Position numbers and translations under genes: made by a program. DNA of 64,000 nt, from contig NZ_JALKBF010000003.1 of the NCBI RefSeq assembly GCF_023016085.1, positions 1 to 64,000 of the forward strand. Direction: 5' to 3'. Shown piece by piece: positions 187 through 8,798 of the stretch. The notes below the pieces were generated by a model that made no database searches, was not told the DNA's origin, and saw only the letters and a program-made list of their open reading frames with translations. Source of the DNA: Aliiroseovarius sp. F47248L (GTDB taxonomy: Bacteria; Pseudomonadota; Alphaproteobacteria; Rhodobacterales; Rhodobacteraceae). The stretch's first letter is position 1; the number at the start of each line of letters is the position of its first letter.

Positions 187-1353
187 TCAGGATGAGATTT
201 CATGGCTGCGCTGCCGCTTAAGAGCCAGCAGCGTGGCAAGTGGGCCGACGATTTCGAAGAAGACTGTGGCCGCGATGGTCAGTGTCATGATCGGTGCAGC
301 CCAGTGTGGGAAGGTTTCGGCAGCAACCAACGCCATTCCGACCGCCACCCCTGCTTGTGGCAGAAGGGCAGGGCCATAGATATGTACCTGCGAAGGGGGG
401 ACGCCGCCAATTCGCGCACCGATCTCACCGCTGACCAGCCGTGCTGCGATACGAAGCACGACATATGCAAGGCTGATCCAGCCAAGCGTCCAAAGTGCAT
501 CCAGTTCAAGTGTCGCACCGGCGAGAAGAAAGAACAGCAGCATGAACGGCCATTCGATATATTCAATTTCGTGAAAAGCGTGGTCGTGATGGCGGGCCAA
601 ATTTGCGATCATCGCGCCTGCGGTCATCCCGGCCACGAGGAACGACACCTCCAGCCAGATCGCAAGACCCGCGGTCAGGAAGACGACGCCGATTGCTTCG
701 GTCTGAAGTGGTTCACCCTCTTTCAGGCGTCCTGTTAGGAAGGCCGACGGGATGCCGACACACGCACCAAGCAGAATGCCGCCACCAATATCGCGACCGG
801 CCCCCATGAGCGGGGCGGCCCATCCGCCGGACTGATCAACAAGCGCCAAGCAAAGGCTGAACATCAAAAGCCCCCAAACATCGTCAATCGCAACGATGCC
901 GCTGAGCGTTTCAGTGAACCCGTTGCGCACACCTGATTGCCGTATGACATCTGAAATTGCCGCCGGATCGGTCGCCGTGGCAATCGCCCCAAGCAAAAGC
1001 GCAAGGCCAGGATCAAGCCCCAAGGCTGTAAGACCGCCCCAGACAATTGCCGTCGTTCCGAAAACGATGCTGAGCGATATTGAGGAAATGGCACGGCCAT
1101 GGCGCAACATGTTTTCGCGGGTCAGTTCCCCGCCAAGCAGGAACGCCACCATGGTCAGCGCCACGACAGAAATCGGCTCGAACAAGTCGGTGACAGATCC
1201 GTGCAGAAGGTCCAGACCGGACGGCCCGACAAGAAGGCCAAGAAGCAACAGCATGGTGACACGCGGCAATCGCGTGATGTGGCCAACTTTATCTGCCAGC
1301 AAACTGCCAAGAAAAAGCACGCCAAGCGTGATCAGCAACAGCGCCTGTTCCAT
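187..1353 (-). CDS. Cation:proton antiporter, CPA family
   Basis: This is a 388-residue polytopic inner-membrane protein that should exchange H+ for Na+ or K+. Hydrophobic segments fill almost the whole length. The diagnostic motifs of monovalent cation/proton antiporters are visible: TATDPAA near residues 124-130 and AIDDVWG near residue 153. The paired aspartates (DD) in the second motif are typical of electrogenic exchangers of the CPA2 type. No C-terminal TrkA-N or other regulatory domain is present. It lies downstream of, and on the same strand as, the pentaheme cytochrome gene, with a strong hairpin between them. Next to an NQR-type pump, a Na+/H+ antiporter would make sense for sodium cycling, but the ion is not determined by sequence. 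The start at the ATG lacks a strong ribosome binding site. Confidence 0.85.
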   Translation of the reverse strand: MEQALLLITLGVLFLGSLLADKVGHITRLPRVTMLLLLGLLVGPSGLDLLHGSVTDLFEPISVVALTMVAFLLGGELTRENMLRHGRAISSISLSIVFGTTAIVWGGLTALGLDPGLALLLGAIATATDPAAISDVIRQSGVRNGFTETLSGIVAIDDVWGLLMFSLCLALVDQSGGWAAPLMGAGRDIGGGILLGACVGIPSAFLTGRLKEGEPLQTEAIGVVFLTAGLAIWLEVSFLVAGMTAGAMIANLARHHDHAFHEIEYIEWPFMLLFFLLAGATLELDALWTLGWISLAYVVLRIAARLVSGEIGARIGGVPPSQVHIYGPALLPQAGVAVGMALVAAETFPHWAAPIMTLTIAATVFFEIVGPLATLLALKRQRSHEISS

Positions 1354-1414: not shown

Positions 1415-2593
1415 TTACCTCAGCAGATCGAGACTGCCCATATCAATACCCAACGGGCCGCTTAGATCCTCGATCGAGTCATAGAGGAGCTCGAGGGCGT
1501 AGTGTGGATTATGCGCATAGTTGCCCGGGTCCGATGTGACCAGTTTCCAGTTGTAAGCGGCGCGCAGGCTGCGCGGTGTCCAACCGTTATAGGCGACCGG
1601 CTTGCCTTCGGCCTGGTCGACGACGCCATCCCCGTTCGCATCCGTGAAGAAGTAAGGATACCGGTTCCCATCGTAAACCATCGGCACACCTGTCACGTCT
1701 TTTGCATAGGATTTGACCGTATCCAGCAAGAGCGCCGCGTTCGCCTGAATGTCAGAGCGGATACCAACCGAGGTGTCGCCAGTGCCGGAGTAGCTTTGGC
1801 GCGAGATACGGATGTCCTGCATGCTGTCAGCCTGGTGGCAGGTCAGGCAAGGCTCGAACGCGATTTCAAGTGTATGTGGCTCGTGGCAGGAGTTGCAGGT
1901 CGAAACCGGTCTGGCGTGGAAGAACCGGCCTGAATAGTCGCGCCCATCATAGTGATAACCTGCACCACCATATCCGCCCAGCCATGTCGCGGCAGCGGTG
2001 GCATAGTGTGGGTTGACGAAACGCAGCTCGGCGTTCGGAGTGTCTGTGTCCATATCGGCGATGGCCTTGCTGACGGTCACGCCTGCAGTTCGGCCTTGGT
2101 GACAGGTCATGCAGGAAGCCTCGACCCCTTGGACGGGATGCATCAGGCCGCTGGGGAACTGTACTTCGGTGATTTCGGCCAATCCGGCATTGTGGCAAGT
2201 GCCGCAATCCACGACGCCGCCAATGTCGATCGGGTTCTCAATGACGCCGGGTTTGCTGCCGTCCAGACCGTGAAATGCACGAAACCCCTCGCCCGCGTGG
2301 CAGGTGGCGCAGGCGGGTTGAATTTCTTCGTCCTCGTCCCAGTGGCGAAAGGCTTCGGCTGCGGCGTCGGCATGGCCTGATCGAAACCAGTTCGCAATCG
2401 CCTGGCTGTTTTCAACTTTGATATCGGCGGCGTTGAACGGCCCCGATTTTGGAAGCGCAAATGGAATGTCGGCTTCCTCTGCCGCAGGATCGCTATTCGT
2501 GGTTTGACCCAGCGCAACGTGGCTGCCTGCAAGGGTACTCAAAGCTACCAAGAATGCTGAAAAACATATGAGTGTTGGATATTTAGACCTCAT
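1415..2593 (-). CDS. Secreted pentaheme cytochrome c with EF-hand-like loop
   Basis: This 392-residue periplasmic c-type cytochrome starts at the ATG at 2593, where GGGGA lies about 8 bases upstream; a longer reading to 2632 would put a polar stretch ahead of the signal peptide. Residues 1-30 form a Sec signal peptide ending near ALGQ. Five CXXCH heme sites occur at residues 95-99, 130-134, 161-165, 233-237 and 249-253. Residues 318-329 read DANGDGVVDQAE, a canonical 12-residue Ca2+-binding EF-hand loop with D, N, D, G, D and E in the right places. I do not recognise a named enzyme. Its divergent position next to the nqr operon suggests that it exchanges electrons with that complex, as multiheme cytochromes encoded beside some Rnf operons do; that link is inference. 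Confidence 0.85.
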   Translation of the reverse strand: MRSKYPTLICFSAFLVALSTLAGSHVALGQTTNSDPAAEEADIPFALPKSGPFNAADIKVENSQAIANWFRSGHADAAAEAFRHWDEDEEIQPACATCHAGEGFRAFHGLDGSKPGVIENPIDIGGVVDCGTCHNAGLAEITEVQFPSGLMHPVQGVEASCMTCHQGRTAGVTVSKAIADMDTDTPNAELRFVNPHYATAAATWLGGYGGAGYHYDGRDYSGRFFHARPVSTCNSCHEPHTLEIAFEPCLTCHQADSMQDIRISRQSYSGTGDTSVGIRSDIQANAALLLDTVKSYAKDVTGVPMVYDGNRYPYFFTDANGDGVVDQAEGKPVAYNGWTPRSLRAAYNWKLVTSDPGNYAHNPHYALELLYDSIEDLSGPLGIDMGSLDLLR

Positions 2594-2723
2594 GACTGAT
2601 TCCCCGTTGTAATTGAAATGATCTTCTTTCAAGCTACTATGAGTATGCTATCGTCGCATTGATGTAAGTCAGAACTGGAAGTCGCGCTGTTTGTTCGCGC
2701 CCTTTCGACGCAGGAGAGAGGTC

Positions 2724-3995
2724 ATGAATGCTCTCAAGTTTGGGTCCGGCCTGACCCCGGCATTCCCATCGCCTCGGATCAGCGCGCTGGAACCAACAGA
2801 TGTGATCACTCAGGAGGCCGGGATACGGACGCCATCCGGCCTGTCGCTTCGTGTCAATCCGTTGGTGCGCGAAGGTGACATCGTTTCGCAGGGTGCGGCG
2901 GTTGCCTGTTTGCGTGACATCCCCGACGTTCAATTCGTGGCCCCTATGCCCGGACGCGTCGCCCGGATATCGCTTCGGCCCGGGCGCAAGTTGTCAGAAA
3001 TCGTATTGTTCCATGAAGCAGGCGGTGACGTGGTGCGACACAAATGCGCCGATGTGGATACAGAGGTAGGACTTCGCAAGCTCATGAAAGCCGCCGGTGT
3101 GTGGCCGTGGTTGCGGCGACGACCGTTTGGCGGCATGCCGCCAGCAGGTGAGCGACCTGCGGCGATTGTTGTGATGGCGATGGATACCCGACCTTTCGCC
3201 CCTGATCCGCGCCTAGCGCTGGAGGGGCGCGAGGGTGCCTTCGCACGCGGCCTTCAGGCATTGACGATGCTGTGCGACGGCCCCGTGTTTGTCTGTCAAA
3301 CTGCTGGACCTGCATTGTTTGAACAGGGGCTTAGCGGCGGGCAGGTGCGGTCCGTTGATGGCCACGCCCGCCATCCGCACGGATCGGCCGGTTTTCGGGT
3401 TCATGACCTTGCACCGGCCACGATTGAGACGCCCGTCTGGGATGTTCACGCCGAAGATGTTGCGGCACTGGGCGATCTTCTTGTGACTGGTGTCTTGCCG
3501 ATGTCTCGTCTTGTGCGAGTTGCCGGTGAGGGATTGCGCGAAAGTCGGTTGATCCGGACCCAGCCCGGCGCTGATCTGCGCGAACTGACGCTTCGCGCTC
3601 AGATCCCCGGCGCAAATGCTTTGCTGTCCGGGTCGCCGCTGGACGGACATGAGGCCCAGTGGCTAGCCCCGCGCCACAGGCAGGTGACGGTTCTGCCCCG
3701 CTCGCCCAAAGGTGCACCGCAACACTGGTTGGTCTCGGCGCTTACCCGGTCGGGCCTGCCCAAGCCGGTGATCCCGACCGCGGCATTGACGCAAGCGTTT
3801 GGCGCAGCCTTGCCAGCCGTTGCGATGGTGCGTGCGCTAAGTTCGGGTGACGACGAAATGGCGATGAAGCTCGGCGCGCTGTCGTTGCTGGAAGAGGATC
3901 TGGGGCTGGCCGATTACATCTTGGGAGGCGATGCCCACATGGCCAAATTGTTGCGTGGCATGTTGGATCGTGTCCAAACGGAGTTTGCGCCATGA
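2724..3995 (+). CDS. nqrA: NADH:quinone reductase (Na+-translocating type) subunit A, divergent
   Basis: This 423-residue protein resembles NqrA, the peripheral cytoplasmic subunit of Na+-NQR. The start at 2724 is chosen because AGGAGAG lies just upstream; an upstream in-frame start at 2691 lacks this. The N-terminal half has the biotinyl/RnfC-like signature (NPLVREGDIVSQG, then APMPGRV and a run ending LSEIVL). The C-terminus keeps the NqrA pattern of IPT, ALSSGD and LGALSLLEEDL. The usual FVCPGKYE-like segment after EEDL is replaced by ADYILGGD. The length is close to the family norm of about 445. The stop overlaps the next start (ATGA), so it is translationally coupled to nqrB. Family membership is secure; orthology to canonical NqrA is less so. 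Confidence 0.8.
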   Translation: MNALKFGSGLTPAFPSPRISALEPTDVITQEAGIRTPSGLSLRVNPLVREGDIVSQGAAVACLRDIPDVQFVAPMPGRVARISLRPGRKLSEIVLFHEAGGDVVRHKCADVDTEVGLRKLMKAAGVWPWLRRRPFGGMPPAGERPAAIVVMAMDTRPFAPDPRLALEGREGAFARGLQALTMLCDGPVFVCQTAGPALFEQGLSGGQVRSVDGHARHPHGSAGFRVHDLAPATIETPVWDVHAEDVAALGDLLVTGVLPMSRLVRVAGEGLRESRLIRTQPGADLRELTLRAQIPGANALLSGSPLDGHEAQWLAPRHRQVTVLPRSPKGAPQHWLVSALTRSGLPKPVIPTAALTQAFGAALPAVAMVRALSSGDDEMAMKLGALSLLEEDLGLADYILGGDAHMAKLLRGMLDRVQTEFAP

Positions 3996-4774
3996 TCAAA
4001 GGGTTGTGGGATCGCGAAACGGTTGCGCTGTTGCTGCTGGCGGCGGTTATGCCACTCGCGCTGTTCTGGCTTTGGTATGGTGGTGCACAAGCTTTGGCGG
4101 CGTTTGGGCTTGCCGCTCTCTGTCTTGCCGTTTGGAGCTTGGTGTTCATGCTCGCGCGGGCACAGCCGCCATCTTTTGCCTTTCTGGTGACGTCATTGGC
4201 CATCGCAATGCTGGCGCCCGAAAATTTGGGCGTGTTCCGGCTGGTGCTGGGGATCAGTTTCGGCGCCGTGATCGGTGAACTTGTCTTTGGCGGTTGGGGG
4301 CGAAATGTCGTCAACCCGGCGGCCGTCACGCTGTCATTTCTTGGCTTCGGCTTTCCCGGGTTTGCGTGGCCGGGCTTTGATGATCCCGTCATCTGGGCGT
4401 CAATCCCGGCGGCGCTGATTGGCGTTGCGACCGGCGTTATGCCCGCTGCTGTTTTTGGCGGTGCACTTTTGGTCTTAGGCGCTGCGGCGATGTTTGGTGC
4501 CCCTGTTGAAGCCGTATTGCCTTCAGCGGGTATCGTTCTTGTTCTTCTTGTCGCCGATCCGGTGACGAGTGCCACGACAACCATTGGCCGATGGTTGAAC
4601 GGCGCGCTTTATGGCGGCCTTGTGGTCATGTTTGCAGCCGGATGGAGCGGAGCAGCCCCCATACAGATGGCGGTCGCGGCGGCGCTTTTGACGTCGTTGG
4701 CTGCGCCACTTTTGGATGAAATCGCAATCTCGCTTTGGATCGCGCAACGCAGGAGGCGTCATGGCCGAAACTGA
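3992..4774 (+). CDS. nqrB: NqrB/RnfD-family membrane subunit, compact form
   Basis: This is a 260-residue polytopic membrane protein of the NqrB/RnfD family, placed between nqrA and nqrC as expected. Family landmarks are VNPAAVTL near residue 108 and ADPVTSATT near residue 189, corresponding to the conserved VNP and TDPVT segments. It is far shorter than canonical NqrB (about 410 residues) or RnfD (about 350). The usual flavinylation motif, [ST]GAT in the periplasmic loop between those landmarks, cannot be found; the loop reads IGVATGVMP instead. The subunit may therefore lack covalent FMN. It overlaps nqrA by 4 bases and nqrC by 14 bases. The reading frame is intact, so the shortness is not a frameshift. 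Confidence 0.78.
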   Translation: MIKGLWDRETVALLLLAAVMPLALFWLWYGGAQALAAFGLAALCLAVWSLVFMLARAQPPSFAFLVTSLAIAMLAPENLGVFRLVLGISFGAVIGELVFGGWGRNVVNPAAVTLSFLGFGFPGFAWPGFDDPVIWASIPAALIGVATGVMPAAVFGGALLVLGAAAMFGAPVEAVLPSAGIVLVLLVADPVTSATTTIGRWLNGALYGGLVVMFAAGWSGAAPIQMAVAAALLTSLAAPLLDEIAISLWIAQRRRRHGRN

Positions 4775-5555
4775 CTGGAACCCTTGGCGCCGTTTTCTTG
4801 CCTCGCCAAACGAAAGCCGAACCAAGACGATCATCGTGGCCTTCCTTGTGTCGGCAGTTTGCGCTGTTCTGGTCAGCGGTGCCACGGTTATTCTAAGGCC
4901 GATCCAGACGGCAAACCGTGCAGCGGAAGAGCAAGCGCGGATCAGCGATCTGGTGCGCGGCATTCCCGGTATGGCAGCCCTGCTTGAGACGTCGGGCGGC
5001 ACCCTGTCGACCGTCGTGATCGACCTTGAAACGGGCCGCGCCGCCGAAGGTGTCACGCGTGAAACGCTTGACACTGTGCTGGCCGATCAGGCCAACTGGA
5101 CCGCTTTGGATGCCAGTGCTGATCTTTCCGGGCTGGGCCAGCGGCCGAACTATGCACAGATTTTCCTGCTGCGAGACAGCGAAGGTGTTTCGCTGGTGTT
5201 GTTGCCGGTGACGGGTCAGGGCTATGGCGGTCGGATTGATGCGATTGTTGCCGTCCATGGGGACATGAATACGATAGCCGGCATGGCGATTACCCAGCAT
5301 TCAGAAACCCCGGGGCTGGGTGGCCGGATCGAGGATCGGTCATGGCTGGAAAGTTTCCCCGGCAAGTTGATCCGTGACGACAGCGGTGCAGTGCAGTTCA
5401 GTGTGGCCCGCGGCGATGCGGCGAACGAATATCAGGTTGACGGTATCACCGGCGCGACCCGCACCGGGGGAGGAATGACCCAGATGATGCGGTTCTGGAT
5501 GGGACCAGATGGCTACGGCCCGCTGCTGGACGCCATCGCACGGGGGGAGTTCTGA
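4761..5555 (+). CDS. nqrC: Na+-NQR subunit C, covalent FMN subunit
   Basis: This 264-residue protein starts at the ATG at 4761, preceded by AGGAGG inside the end of nqrB. One N-terminal membrane anchor spans residues 23-46 and the rest should face the periplasm. The FMN-binding domain carries DGITGAT at residues 227-233; Thr233 is the expected phosphoester-linked FMN site used by ApbE-type flavin transferases. HSETPGLGGRI at residues 180-190 matches the conserved NqrC/RnfG segment. Length agrees with the family. No apbE gene lies in the window, so the flavin transferase must be encoded elsewhere. Confidence 0.9.
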   Translation: MAETDWNPWRRFLASPNESRTKTIIVAFLVSAVCAVLVSGATVILRPIQTANRAAEEQARISDLVRGIPGMAALLETSGGTLSTVVIDLETGRAAEGVTRETLDTVLADQANWTALDASADLSGLGQRPNYAQIFLLRDSEGVSLVLLPVTGQGYGGRIDAIVAVHGDMNTIAGMAITQHSETPGLGGRIEDRSWLESFPGKLIRDDSGAVQFSVARGDAANEYQVDGITGATRTGGGMTQMMRFWMGPDGYGPLLDAIARGEF

Positions 5556-5558
5556 CCC

Positions 5559-6224
5559 ATGCCCACGCGCACCTCATTCTGGACCACGCTGACTGATCCG
5601 CTGATCCGGCAGAACCCGGTTACATTGCAGATCCTTGGGATCTGCTCGGCGCTTGCAGTCACGACATCGCTGGCCACGGCGTTGACAATGTCGGTGTCGC
5701 TGACCGTTGTGTTGACGCTGGCGGCAGGTGTGATCAGCGTAATCCGCCGGCACATCCCGGACACGATCCGCCTGATCGTCCAGATCGTGATTGTCGCCTC
5801 GCTGGTGATTGTGATTGACCAGATCCTGCAAGCCTATTTTGCCGAGATTAGCCGCGCGCTTTCGGTCTATGTCGGGCTGATCACCACGAACTGTCTGGTC
5901 CTTGGTCGCACCGAGGCCTACGCCCGCTATCACGCGCCACTGCCATCGATGGTCGATGCGTTTGGCAATGGGCTGGGATATTCTCTGGTCCTGATCATCA
6001 TCGGTGCGTTCCGCGAGCTTTTCGGGCGGGGACAGTTGTTCGGTCATCAGGTGCTACCGTTGGCCGATGACGGGGGCTGGTTCACACCGCTGAGTCTGAT
6101 GCTGCTCGCACCGTCTGCTTTCTTCCTGCTGGGGGGGCTGGTCTGGGCCGTGCGATCGGTGTGGACCGAACAGGCCGAACCGCCTGAGCATACGCCCCCC
6201 TTGCGACCGGAGATCGTGGAATGA
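5559..6224 (+). CDS. nqrD: Na+-NQR subunit D
   Basis: This 221-residue membrane subunit has six predicted hydrophobic segments. Cys29 (in LGICSAL) and Cys112 (in TTNCLVLGR) sit at the positions known in Vibrio NqrD to ligate the intramembrane iron centre with two cysteines of NqrE. NPVTLQILGICSALAVT near the N-terminus is a clear family signature. The gene follows nqrC by 3 bases and overlaps nqrE by 4 bases (ATGA). A hydrophilic tail after residue 200, rich in Glu and Pro, is the least conserved part. Confidence 0.92.
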   Translation: MPTRTSFWTTLTDPLIRQNPVTLQILGICSALAVTTSLATALTMSVSLTVVLTLAAGVISVIRRHIPDTIRLIVQIVIVASLVIVIDQILQAYFAEISRALSVYVGLITTNCLVLGRTEAYARYHAPLPSMVDAFGNGLGYSLVLIIIGAFRELFGRGQLFGHQVLPLADDGGWFTPLSLMLLAPSAFFLLGGLVWAVRSVWTEQAEPPEHTPPLRPEIVE

Positions 6225-6835
6225 GCGACGCCTGGTCCTTTTTCCTGTTCGCGGCGTTTGTCGACAACATGCCGCTGACCCTGTTTCTGGGGTTGTGCAC
6301 GTTCCTTGCCCTGTCGCGCCGCACTGAAAGCGCGATCGGGCTGGGCATCGCCATGACGGGTGTCTTGGGGGTGACGGTCCCTTTGAACAACCTGATCTAC
6401 AACGGGCTTCTTGCCCCCGGCGCATGGGGTTGGGTGGGGCAGCCTGACCTTGATCTGTCATATCTGGCGCTGATTGCCTTTATCGGCGTGATTGCAGCGA
6501 CGGTGCAGCTTTTGGAGATGTTGCTTGATCGGTTCTTTCCGACCATTCACGCCGCATTCGGTGTCTTCCTGCCGCTTCTGACCGTACAATGTGCGATCCT
6601 TGCGGGTAGCCTTTTCATGGTCGAACGCAACTATACCCTTGGTCAGTCGGCCATTTTCGGCGTGGGCAGCGGGTTTGGATTTGCTGTGGCCGTGGTCATG
6701 CTCAGCGCTATCCGCACACGCCTTTCCTATGCGGATCTGCCTGCGGGTCTGCGGGGGCTTGGCATCGCGTTTATTCTGACCGGGCTTATGTCGCTAGGCT
6801 TCGCCTCGTTCGCGCAAATGGCGGCAGCACCATGA
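6221..6835 (+). CDS. nqrE: Na+-NQR subunit E
   Basis: This 204-residue membrane subunit is homologous to NqrD with inverted topology. FVDNMPLTLFLGLC places Cys26 at the known iron-ligand position, and LTVQCAIL supplies the second ligand at Cys124, equivalent to Cys120 of Vibrio. The motif VPLNNLIYNGLL near residue 53 is typical of NqrE. It overlaps both neighbours by 4 bases (ATGA), so D, E and F are translationally coupled. Together with NqrD it should form the channel-like core containing the membrane iron-sulfur centre. Confidence 0.92.
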   Translation: MSDAWSFFLFAAFVDNMPLTLFLGLCTFLALSRRTESAIGLGIAMTGVLGVTVPLNNLIYNGLLAPGAWGWVGQPDLDLSYLALIAFIGVIAATVQLLEMLLDRFFPTIHAAFGVFLPLLTVQCAILAGSLFMVERNYTLGQSAIFGVGSGFGFAVAVVMLSAIRTRLSYADLPAGLRGLGIAFILTGLMSLGFASFAQMAAAP

Positions 6836-8055
6836 GCGAGATCGTCCTTGGCAGCTTGATCATCGCGGCCCTCGTGGTGGGGTTGGCAATCGGCCTTCTG
6901 GTCGCGCGCAGCAGGCTGGTGCCGAAGGGGGCCATCAATGTGACCGTCAACGGCGCGCGGCAGATTGCAGCGCAGCGGGGGGCCAAGCTGTTGGGCGTTC
7001 TGCATGGTGCGGACATTCGTATTCCGGCGGCCTGTGGCGGGTCGGGCACCTGCGGGCTTTGTCGTGTTACGGTCACGGGCGAAGGTGCCGGAGAGCCGCA
7101 GGCGACCGAACGCGGTGTTCTGTCGCCAAAAGAACGCCGCGCTCATATGCGCCTTGCCTGCCAGGCCACGCTGCGCGGCGACTGTGAAGTGAGCGTGCCT
7201 GACGACATCCTTAGCGCGGGGGGTGGTGTCGCGTGCAAGGTTTCCTCGACCCGAATGCTTGCCCCGCTTATTCGCGAGATCGTGCTGAATATACCCGACG
7301 ATCACCCGACGGCCTTTCGGGCAGGCGACTTCATGCAGATCACCGCGCCCGCCTATCAGCTCGATTTTACCGGGTTGGACGTGGCGCCACAGTTTCGCGA
7401 CGCATGGGAAATCAACGGGTGGGGCGGGTTGAACGTGGCGTCAGAAGTGGAAGTCACCCGGGCCTATTCGCTGGCCAGCCGGCCCAAGGATGTGGGGCGC
7501 GCAGTGTTCAATATCCGCCTAGCCGTGCCACCCGCCGGACGCGAAACCGAGGTTCCGCCGGGCATCGTATCGTCATGGCTGTTTTCACTGAAGCCGGGCG
7601 ATATGGTCGATGTGTCTGGCCCGTTCGGCGAGTTCCACGTTCAGCCGACCGACCGCGAGATGATTTTTATCGGGGGCGGGGTGGGTATGGCCCCGCTGCG
7701 CGCGATGATCCATCAGGAGCTGGGGCGCGGCACCACCCGGCGTCTTCGCTACTTTTATGGCGCGCGCACCGCTGCCGATCTGTTCTATTCTGATGAGTTC
7801 GAGGCATTGGCGGCGGAGTATGCCAATTTTAGCTGGACACCCGCCCTGTCAGACCCGGCGCCGGGGGACCGTTGGATGGGCAAGACGGGGTTCATACATG
7901 AGATGCTTAAAGCAGAGATGAGCACCCACACCGCTCCGGAAGACTGCGAATACTACCTATGCGGCCCACCAGTCATGATCTCGGCTGTACTTGGCACGCT
8001 GGAACGGTTGGGCGTTGAGCCGCGCTCAATCTTCTTCGATGATTTTGGAGGCTAG
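6832..8055 (+). CDS. nqrF: Na+-NQR subunit F, NADH-oxidising flavoprotein
   Basis: This 407-residue subunit takes electrons from NADH. It has an N-terminal membrane helix (residues 5-25), then a plant-type [2Fe-2S] ferredoxin domain with Cys68, Cys74, Cys77 and Cys110. A ferredoxin-reductase module follows: RAYSLAS binds FAD near residue 210, GGGVGMAPLR binds the NADH pyrophosphate near residue 281, and YYLCGPPVM lies near the C-terminus. Length equals canonical NqrF. Because the NADH entry site is fully conserved, the complex should be NADH-dependent despite the divergent A and B subunits. Confidence 0.93.
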   Translation: MSEIVLGSLIIAALVVGLAIGLLVARSRLVPKGAINVTVNGARQIAAQRGAKLLGVLHGADIRIPAACGGSGTCGLCRVTVTGEGAGEPQATERGVLSPKERRAHMRLACQATLRGDCEVSVPDDILSAGGGVACKVSSTRMLAPLIREIVLNIPDDHPTAFRAGDFMQITAPAYQLDFTGLDVAPQFRDAWEINGWGGLNVASEVEVTRAYSLASRPKDVGRAVFNIRLAVPPAGRETEVPPGIVSSWLFSLKPGDMVDVSGPFGEFHVQPTDREMIFIGGGVGMAPLRAMIHQELGRGTTRRLRYFYGARTAADLFYSDEFEALAAEYANFSWTPALSDPAPGDRWMGKTGFIHEMLKAEMSTHTAPEDCEYYLCGPPVMISAVLGTLERLGVEPRSIFFDDFGG

Positions 8056-8060
8056 GCAAT

Positions 8061-8079
8061 GCACAATCTAGTATTGTGC
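8061..8079 (+). repeat. 7-bp hairpin between nqrF and nqrM
   Basis: GCACAAT and ATTGTGC form a perfect inverted repeat around the 5-base loop CTAGT, 5 bases after the nqrF stop. No U-run follows, so it is more likely an mRNA processing or stabilising element than a terminator; nqrM lies 150 bases downstream on the same strand. Confidence 0.5.
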
Positions 8080-8229
8080 CCGAAACTTTGTATCGCCTTG
8101 GGCGTGATCGTTGCGGCTTGCGTGTTCAAACGGACTTTGCATGCCTTTGCCATGTGGGATTTGATAAGTATCAGGTCATTAGGACCGGTTGGATTGACAC
8201 ACGGCTGCTTTGAATAAGGAGCTACAGCT

Positions 8230-8409
8230 ATGGAAATCTTGTTTGCGATTGTCATCTTCGGCCTTGCGGCTGTTGGGTTGGGGCTGGGGCTTACCTTCGG
8301 ACGAGATCCAGTGCGCACCAGCTGCGGGGCGTCTGCCGGTCTGCGCGAAGGACGCTGTTCGGACTGTCCCTTGCGCCATCGCGCAGAGGCTGCGGAGTCA
8401 CAAGAATGA
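8230..8409 (+). CDS. nqrM: NqrM-like Na+-NQR maturation protein
   Basis: This 59-residue protein is too short for most gene-length cut-offs. One transmembrane helix covers roughly residues 3-23, followed by RTSCGAS and GRCSDCPLRH. The arrangement of a helix and then a Cys-Gly site and a C-x2-CP site matches NqrM, which is needed to assemble the iron centre of NqrD/NqrE; canonical NqrM has one more cysteine at the CP end, where this protein has LRHR. AAGGAG lies about 8 bases before the ATG. Its place directly after nqrF is the usual one. The stop overlaps the CBS gene start by 4 bases. Confidence 0.8.
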   Translation: MEILFAIVIFGLAAVGLGLGLTFGRDPVRTSCGASAGLREGRCSDCPLRHRAEAAESQE

Positions 8410-8798
8410 GCACGCATCGGGTTGCATCAATCATGCGCAGCGATGTCCCTATGCTTGCGCCTGACACACCGATCCGGCATGCGATTACCGTTCTGCTTGA
8501 TGCACGTGCCGCCGCCGCCCCCGTGATTGGGGTCGATGGTGGGCTTGTGGGGATCCTGACCCAGAAGGACTGTTTCCGACCAGCTCTGCATGCAAGTTAT
8601 CATCAGGAATGGACGGGTCGGGTGGCGGATCAAATGTCAGCAGATGTCATCAGCGTTGATGCCAGCGACGATATGATCCGTGTGGCAGAGATGTTCCTGA
8701 CTCACCCGTATCGCGTCTTTCCGGTTATGGACGGCGCAACCGTCGTCGGGCTGGTGAACCGCTCAGATGTCCTGTCCTTCCTGTTGCGCGCGGGCTGA
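8406..8798 (+). CDS. CBS-domain pair protein
   Basis: This 130-residue cytoplasmic protein consists almost only of two CBS motifs: residues 5-60 (IMRSDVPMLAPDTPIRHA ... GILTQKD) and 72-127 (QMSADVISVDASDDMIRVA ... GLVNRSDVL). Such Bateman modules bind adenine nucleotides and act as energy or redox-state sensors. It is coupled to nqrM by an ATGA overlap, so it is probably made with the NQR complex and may sense ATP/AMP or NAD(H) to tune it; that role is inference. No catalytic domain is attached. Confidence 0.85.
   Translation: MSTHRVASIMRSDVPMLAPDTPIRHAITVLLDARAAAAPVIGVDGGLVGILTQKDCFRPALHASYHQEWTGRVADQMSADVISVDASDDMIRVAEMFLTHPYRVFPVMDGATVVGLVNRSDVLSFLLRAG

Follow-up and report, generated by a model that had tools for sequence, protein, structure and literature searches.

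In the Na+-translocating NADH:quinone oxidoreductase (Na+-NQR), as described in the available passages of PMC10643135, N-terminal amphipathic helices of NqrB close the ubiquinone site, and a model of Na+ coupling has the steps from the flavin mononucleotide (FMN) of NqrC to the FMN of NqrB and on to riboflavin open the ion path. How electron transfer in the complex is tied to the movement of Na+ remains under debate. Here an NQR-type operon from Aliiroseovarius sp. F47248L was examined, together with a gene for a pentaheme c-type cytochrome that is transcribed divergently from it. Both lie on contig NZ_JALKBF010000003.1, in a stretch of 64,000 nucleotides (positions 1 to 64,000), which is called the window below. 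The operon occupies 2724-8055 (+) and is like Na+-NQR in its gene order, nqrA-nqrB-nqrC-nqrD-nqrE-nqrF, in the cofactor motifs of NqrF, NqrD/E and NqrC, and in its riboflavin-site residues. Compared with the Vibrio cholerae structures 8a1x and 7xk3, the window's NqrB is without FMN-Thr236, the loop around it and the N-terminal helices that form the quinone lid. This rewired NQR probably oxidises cytosolic NADH and passes the electrons to the periplasmic pentaheme cytochrome, not to ubiquinone.

Other described complexes resemble the locus in part. Passages of PMC11024163 describe the Rnf complex of Methanosarcina acetivorans, which is encoded with a multiheme c-type cytochrome, MmcA, that takes its electrons. 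That system differs in being driven by ferredoxin, and MmcA is a heptaheme protein related to octaheme tetrathionate reductase (OTR) which reduces methanophenazine; no loss of the RnfD FMN site is reported in those passages. In Desulfovibrio, the parts of PMC4841214 consulted place a multiheme gene beside an rnf operon with an apbE-like gene; its product, DhcA, is a decaheme protein of the cytochrome c3 family, and its mutants were unaffected in fitness with ethanol, formate or H2. Two-subunit Nqr/Rnf-like complexes, in the passages seen of PMC8238504 and PMC11334425, likewise lack the flavinylated threonine in their NqrB/RnfD-like subunit, keep an apparent non-covalent flavin site, and are proposed to carry electrons one way, from NAD(P)H to the outside. 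They consist only of an NqrB fused to a NAD-binding domain and an NqrC-like partner, whereas in the window NqrB (260 amino acids, aa) and NqrF (407 aa) are separate proteins, the other four subunits are encoded too, among them the iron-sulfur relay of NqrD/E, and a cytochrome gene is adjacent. As far as the consulted parts of these sources go, none of the compared systems combines a six-subunit NQR with flavin and quinone loss in NqrB and a cytochrome. No description of a cytochrome-linked compact NQR was found among the literature matches listed, which were mostly at title or abstract level and had most subscription papers outside. Rnf also has RnfB and RnfC, which we take to be its specific ferredoxin-side subunits, and the window's operon proteins match NqrA and NqrF instead.

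Relatives of the locus were sought by scanning named genomes, and the best 80 of 116 loci were used (row counts vary, with 3-4 dropped for length or a missing gene), alongside two survey sets, 149 genomes of the host's family and 398 Pseudomonadota genomes. An earlier sequence-only reading of this DNA had called NqrB about 150 residues short, and it is, with 260 aa against 414-415 aa in V. cholerae-type NqrB. It scores far under two curated equivalog cut-offs (78 against 414 bits, 68 against 350 bits). The protein was compared, in V. cholerae numbering, across 27 canonical, 79 type-I compact and 8 type-II compact sequences. The FMN threonine T236 is present in 27/27 canonical NqrBs and in none of the type-I (0/79) or type-II (0/8) ones. 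The loop that carries it is absent from all 79 type-I sequences. Absent from type I too are the N-terminal helices that close over ubiquinone, and the positions of the quinone helix AH-II are empty in 79/79. The ion path is changed as well. E157, at the Na+ entry, is found in 27/27 canonical against 0/79 type-I sequences, and the gate residue F342, also 27/27 in canonical NqrB, is Leu in 77 and Val in 2 of the type-I proteins. These replaced entry and gate residues, together with a divergent pentaheme gene in all testable loci, distinguish type I from Na+-NQR. Within the NQR/Rnf kind, the operon is set apart from Na+-NQR because the FMN threonine and lid helices of NqrB are missing and NqrA and NqrB fail their cut-offs. 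Three canonical NqrBs (L116, L132 and L134) have Thr in the T236 column within a motif other than [ST]GA[ST], so that the usual search for flavinylation motifs would overlook them.

The input half of the complex is complete in this family, with its cofactor motifs intact. All six proteins match their own subunit families. NqrD, NqrE and NqrF exceed the TIGRFAM equivalog cut-offs (427 bits against 295 for NqrF with TIGR01941), and NqrC falls marginally under its own (141 against 144 bits). The cysteines C68, C74, C77 and C110 of NqrF are invariant in 77/77 rows of relatives, and so are C29 and C112 of NqrD (77/77) and C26 and C124 of NqrE (78/78), the ligands of the intramembrane iron-sulfur centre. 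The flavin threonine position of NqrC holds Thr in 75 of 77 rows, with one Ser and one Pro, and the TGAT motif of the window's NqrC leads us to expect a covalent FMN there. NqrA is divergent and differs in this from NqrA of Na+-NQR; its scores are 220 bits with NF003759 (cut-off 505) and 205 bits with TIGR01936 (cut-off 321). The sequence-only reading had listed six complete nqr genes, intact NqrF cysteines and motifs for NADH and flavin adenine dinucleotide (FAD), intact NqrD and NqrE cysteines, an intact NqrC flavin threonine and a divergent NqrA, and each of these points was borne out.

The NqrB losses, of the FMN threonine loop and of the quinone lid, fit delivery of electrons to the cytochrome. 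In the proposed route, NADH would reduce the FAD and [2Fe-2S] centre of NqrF in the cytosol, and electrons would pass from NqrF through the intramembrane [2Fe-2S] centre of NqrD/E to the FMN that ApbE would attach covalently to NqrC on the periplasmic side. FMN-NqrC would then reduce the hemes of the secreted pentaheme cytochrome without a quinone step, while the return path, from FMN-NqrB to riboflavin to ubiquinone, would be cut in compact NqrB. Since compact NqrB is without the FMN threonine and the quinone lid, the FMN of NqrC most likely reduces the cytochrome. We lean towards the view that the clade no longer has the quinone-reducing half and works as an NADH:periplasmic-cytochrome c oxidoreductase independent of quinone, exporting electrons one way with the pentaheme protein as terminal partner. 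The membrane potential would help one-way export of electrons, which means that pumping may be absent, or that one cation may leave with each electron to balance the charge. The sequence-only reading had suggested a complex linked to a periplasmic cytochrome, and this interpretation is supported; the flow to the cytochrome, its direction, the lack of quinone reduction, any ion coupling and the final acceptor are what we infer from the evidence given here. If true, the input half of NQR occurs in nature apart from the return half and the ion coupling that goes with it. The family would be a natural deletion in the later NQR steps with the earlier ones kept, and can therefore be used to test which half pumps. 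In marine bacteria of the Rhodobacter/Roseobacter group, which are widespread, it would also let electrons from NADH reach the periplasm without entering the quinone pool.

The pentaheme gene accompanies the operon closely. Two of the 80 named loci are on contigs that end inside nqrA, which leaves 78 testable ones, and the cytochrome lies divergently upstream of nqrA in 78/78 type-I loci with upstream sequence. It is within 500 bp of nqrA in 77 of them and slightly farther in L058. In L058 and L071 the cytochrome is just a fragment in one frame, and other subunits there are fragmentary too, in several short frames. Among the 149 family genomes, the cytochrome was found in 19/22 with compact NqrB against 8/127 others, and all 19 lie within a few kb of nqrB by coordinates. 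A divergent pentaheme gene also stands beside 10/13 type-II operons (13 type-II among the 14 loci listed); the other three are those of G012, G108 and G036, described below. Co-occurrence elsewhere, which the sequence-only reading had left to be surveyed, is thus seen in both sets, with the two fragmentary loci counted.

Several observations weigh against delivery to the cytochrome. The riboflavin-site residues (as defined in PMC10643135) are well kept in type I, with N200 in 79/79, G198 in 79/79 and D346 in 76/79, and less well in type II, and their retention would be odd if electrons never enter NqrB. A flavin at this site may be structural, or the FMN of NqrC may visit there. Some contacts to quinone are kept as well. 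At the G141 position 44/79 type-I sequences have Gly and 32/79 have Ala, the L138 position stays hydrophobic, and the window's NqrB retains Phe at the F159 position. Three compact operons, in G012, G108 and G036, are without the cytochrome and form the deepest compact-NqrB branches in a midpoint-rooted tree, which suggests that compaction may precede the cytochrome or not need it; for G012 the contig gives just 1.6 kb upstream, too short to judge. In G108 the pentaheme gene is replaced by a divergent EB_dh-family protein with one CxxCH (L086, G108:C41, 1370-2752, minus strand), and in G036 a SelO gene stands in its place. Lastly, three of the nine cytochrome homologs found away from compact NQR (in G087, G119 and G007) have no neighbour of the ferric-reductase type, the partner described below. 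EB_dh (PF09459) was tried as an alternative partner and rejected; it occurs in 4/6 genomes searched and adjoins the operon by coordinates only in G108.

These residues and basal operons could mean that the complex is a compact NADH:quinone oxidoreductase, in which electrons go from FMN-NqrC to riboflavin in NqrB and then reach quinone at a changed site, and the cytochrome serves otherwise. For the two-subunit complexes, passages of PMC11334425 propose that an outer covalent flavin samples the non-covalent flavin site of a membrane subunit without the threonine. We consider this reading unlikely, as the quinone-lid helices are gone from every type-I sequence, the cytochrome is present in all testable type-I loci and most type-II ones, and the host genome encodes complex I, so that a quinone-reducing NADH dehydrogenase is already there. 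Another way to account for a kept riboflavin site alongside a lost FMN loop is that the cytochrome replaces FMN-NqrB as a periplasmic bridge, with electrons running from FMN-NqrC through the hemes to riboflavin in NqrB and then to quinone, so that the semicircular path is kept. This is improbable, given that the cytochrome looks soluble and secreted (no anchor was seen by eye), that the quinone lid is missing, and that cytochrome homologs adjoin a partner without any NqrB.

The cytochrome itself has five CxxCH motifs in 77/77 type-I rows (76 loci and the window, with L058 and L071 left out for length). Its signal peptide was recognised by eye, and by eye no membrane anchor was seen, in line with the secreted, divergently transcribed pentaheme cytochrome of the sequence-only reading. 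Outside the motifs, His 75, 197, 227 and 241 are invariant in 87/87 rows, His 362 is kept in 86/87 and His 85 in 85/87, and in type I alone His 153 is close to invariant (76/77). There would be enough histidines for all five hemes to be bis-His, as is typical of electron carriers. The structural model is weak (predicted local distance difference test score, pLDDT, 69); VIA-align gave only faint matches to NrfA/OcwA-type proteins, and a Foldseek search with this model gave no match at E<=0.001. The pentaheme nitrite reductase NrfA has CxxCK, presumably the motif of its catalytic heme, whereas CxxCK is absent from this cytochrome family, all five hemes being CxxCH in the 77 rows.

The best evidence for direction comes from the homologs away from compact NQR, nine in all (eight genomes and a second copy in G047). 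Six of them (G011, G037, G062, G070, G074 and G047) have as divergent neighbour a membrane oxidoreductase for NAD(P)H, of the ferric-reductase type and about 500 aa long, that combines PF01794, PF08022 and PF00175, the ferric-reductase transmembrane, FAD-binding and NAD-binding domains. Five of these neighbours were identified by Pfam scan and the sixth by 61% identity. The six paired cytochromes group together with 100/100 support, and the larger set around them includes 8/10 of the type-II NQR cytochromes (midpoint root). Two unrelated NAD(P)H-using membrane modules thus share one secreted cytochrome family, which argues for flow from NADH inside to heme outside. The opposite flow would take electrons from periplasmic donors through the pentaheme protein, FMN-NqrC, NqrD/E and NqrF to NAD+, driven by an ion gradient. 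The cation/proton antiporter that adjoins the cytochrome in 28/76 loci with enough sequence would suit it, and the decaheme protein beside Desulfovibrio rnf is proposed to feed electrons into Rnf in the passages seen of PMC4841214. Reverse flow is nevertheless doubtful, slightly more so than quinone reduction by a compact complex. The ferric-reductase-type family with which the cytochrome relatives pair is taken to run outward from NAD(P)H, the gate and entry residues of the NqrB ion path are replaced, and moving electrons inward against the membrane potential would be costly.

Genes near the module were searched for an acceptor downstream of the cytochrome. Flank clustering over the 80 loci and the window gave no conserved terminal reductase near the module; the largest clusters held apbE (46 loci), the antiporter (29 loci) and a long reading frame on the strand opposite the apbE position (15 loci), and the next had just 6. 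At L091 (G007:C13, 5491-8549) a pentaheme homolog adjoins a protein with nine CxxCH and PF11783, which we take to be a domain of octaheme tetrathionate reductases, and this neighbour could be a hint at a partner further downstream. The host genome, too, encodes an OTR-like multiheme protein with PF11783 (G000:C1:1410642-1411172, minus strand). As a general acceptor the OTR-type octaheme was rejected, being present in 11/149 genomes, three of them with compact NqrB (G000, G012 and G114), with no clear association.

Compact NqrB forms a family of its own. The window's NqrB has 1006 homologs with E<=1e-3, and the 120 listed are all 258-265 aa long, so its shortness is not chance. The named type-I loci are mostly from Rhodobacteraceae and Roseobacteraceae, plus Martelella and Nitratireductor. 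Two others, L076 (Granulosicoccus, an uncultured isolate) and L071 (Marinicella sp. W31), carry a Rhodobacteraceae-like module, by lateral transfer or in mislabelled records. In the family survey 50/149 genomes have a PF03116 match: 27 full-length, 22 compact and 3 with the C-terminal half only (G004, G017 and G054), with G099 and G125 carrying both full-length and compact matches. By score and frame length, 26 of the 27 full-length matches are NqrB-like; the one in G051 is probably Rnf rather than NQR, as its subunits are only 30-37% like those of NQR. A compact-NqrB profile matched 85 of the 398 Pseudomonadota genomes at E<=1e-5, over most of its length in just four (G000, G462, G482 and G246), all in the host's family. 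The sequence-only reading had proposed a phylogeny of NqrA and NqrB, and its NqrB part was run. In a tree of 63 proteins the compact NqrBs are one clade apart from the canonical ones, with support 100/100. This tree was used in place of an NqrD tree, which was uninformative because it kept only one canonical row after 21 whose short loci gave fragments under 150 aa were dropped. Type-II NqrB shares 30-39% identity with that of the window. Two complete modules occur in Roseivivax sediminis, both with a cytochrome (62% identity between the two cytochromes, 68% between the two NqrBs).

A shortened NqrB might simply belong to a decaying or non-functional nqr copy, and broken relatives do exist: in the module of G013 (L100) a TGA codon interrupts the cytochrome frame and subunits are fragmented, and L058 and L071 are fragmentary. 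For the window's family decay is rejected by conservation and we give it next to no credence, as NqrB length and residues are conserved in a large family, the input cysteines are invariant, and the AlphaFold2 model of compact NqrB shows a complete NqrB fold (pLDDT 90.7). In the host genome (3.5 Mb in 7 contigs, 99.99% complete) the only PF03116 protein and the only two PF02508 proteins belong to the nqr operon, and searches with these two families therefore found no second, canonical nqr or rnf there. The sequence-only reading had raised a canonical nqr elsewhere in the genome and a decayed operon as possibilities, and neither holds.

The features of the locus are listed in the table below.

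Features of the compact NQR locus, with positions in the window
Feature	Position	Strand	Remarks
NhaP-type cation/proton antiporter	187..1353	-	PF00999; often neighbours the cytochrome
Secreted pentaheme c-type cytochrome	1415..2593	-	PF14522/PF02085, five CxxCH; divergent from nqrA
FNR/CRP-type dyad TTGATGTAAGTCAG	2659..2672		Divergent promoter; 1 mismatch to TTGAY-N4-RTCAA
nqrA, divergent	2724..3995	+	Under equivalog cut-offs
Compact nqrB, 260 aa	3992..4774	+	No FMN-Thr loop or N-terminal quinone-lid helices; most riboflavin-site residues retained
nqrC	4761..5555	+	Flavinylation motif TGAT intact
nqrD	5559..6224	+	Cys29/Cys112 intact
nqrE	6221..6835	+	Cys26/Cys124 intact
nqrF	6832..8055	+	NADH/FAD domain, [2Fe-2S] ligands intact
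NqrM-like protein, 59 aa	8230..8409	+	Position and three invariant Cys; no Pfam match
Two-CBS-domain protein	8406..8798	+	PF00571; conserved member of module

The sequence-only reading had named NqrM and a CBS protein beside the operon. The CBS protein was confirmed by its Pfam match, and its gene lies 3' of nqrF in 73/74 loci with enough sequence. The NqrM assignment stands in part: three cysteines of the 59-aa protein are invariant across 55 rows, the window included, and it had no Pfam match even at E<=10. An apbE gene follows nqrF in at least 61/74 loci with enough sequence, a lower bound because L050, the source of the ApbE query, was scored as a miss by the distance rule. The window's operon is without apbE, and the host genome has a single copy of this flavin transferase gene away from the operon. 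In the sources, genes of the module are currently named NqrB, RnfD or 'cytochrome c3 family'.

The divergent promoter between the cytochrome and nqrA likely answers to a regulator of the CRP/FNR family, judging by a dyad of the form TTGAY-N4-RTCAA, which we take to be the FNR/CRP consensus. It was found with at most 2 mismatches in 41/77 divergent promoters, where random windows taken from these loci would lead one to expect 7.8, and four control dyads occurred in 3 to 14 promoters each, the related sequences not being independent.

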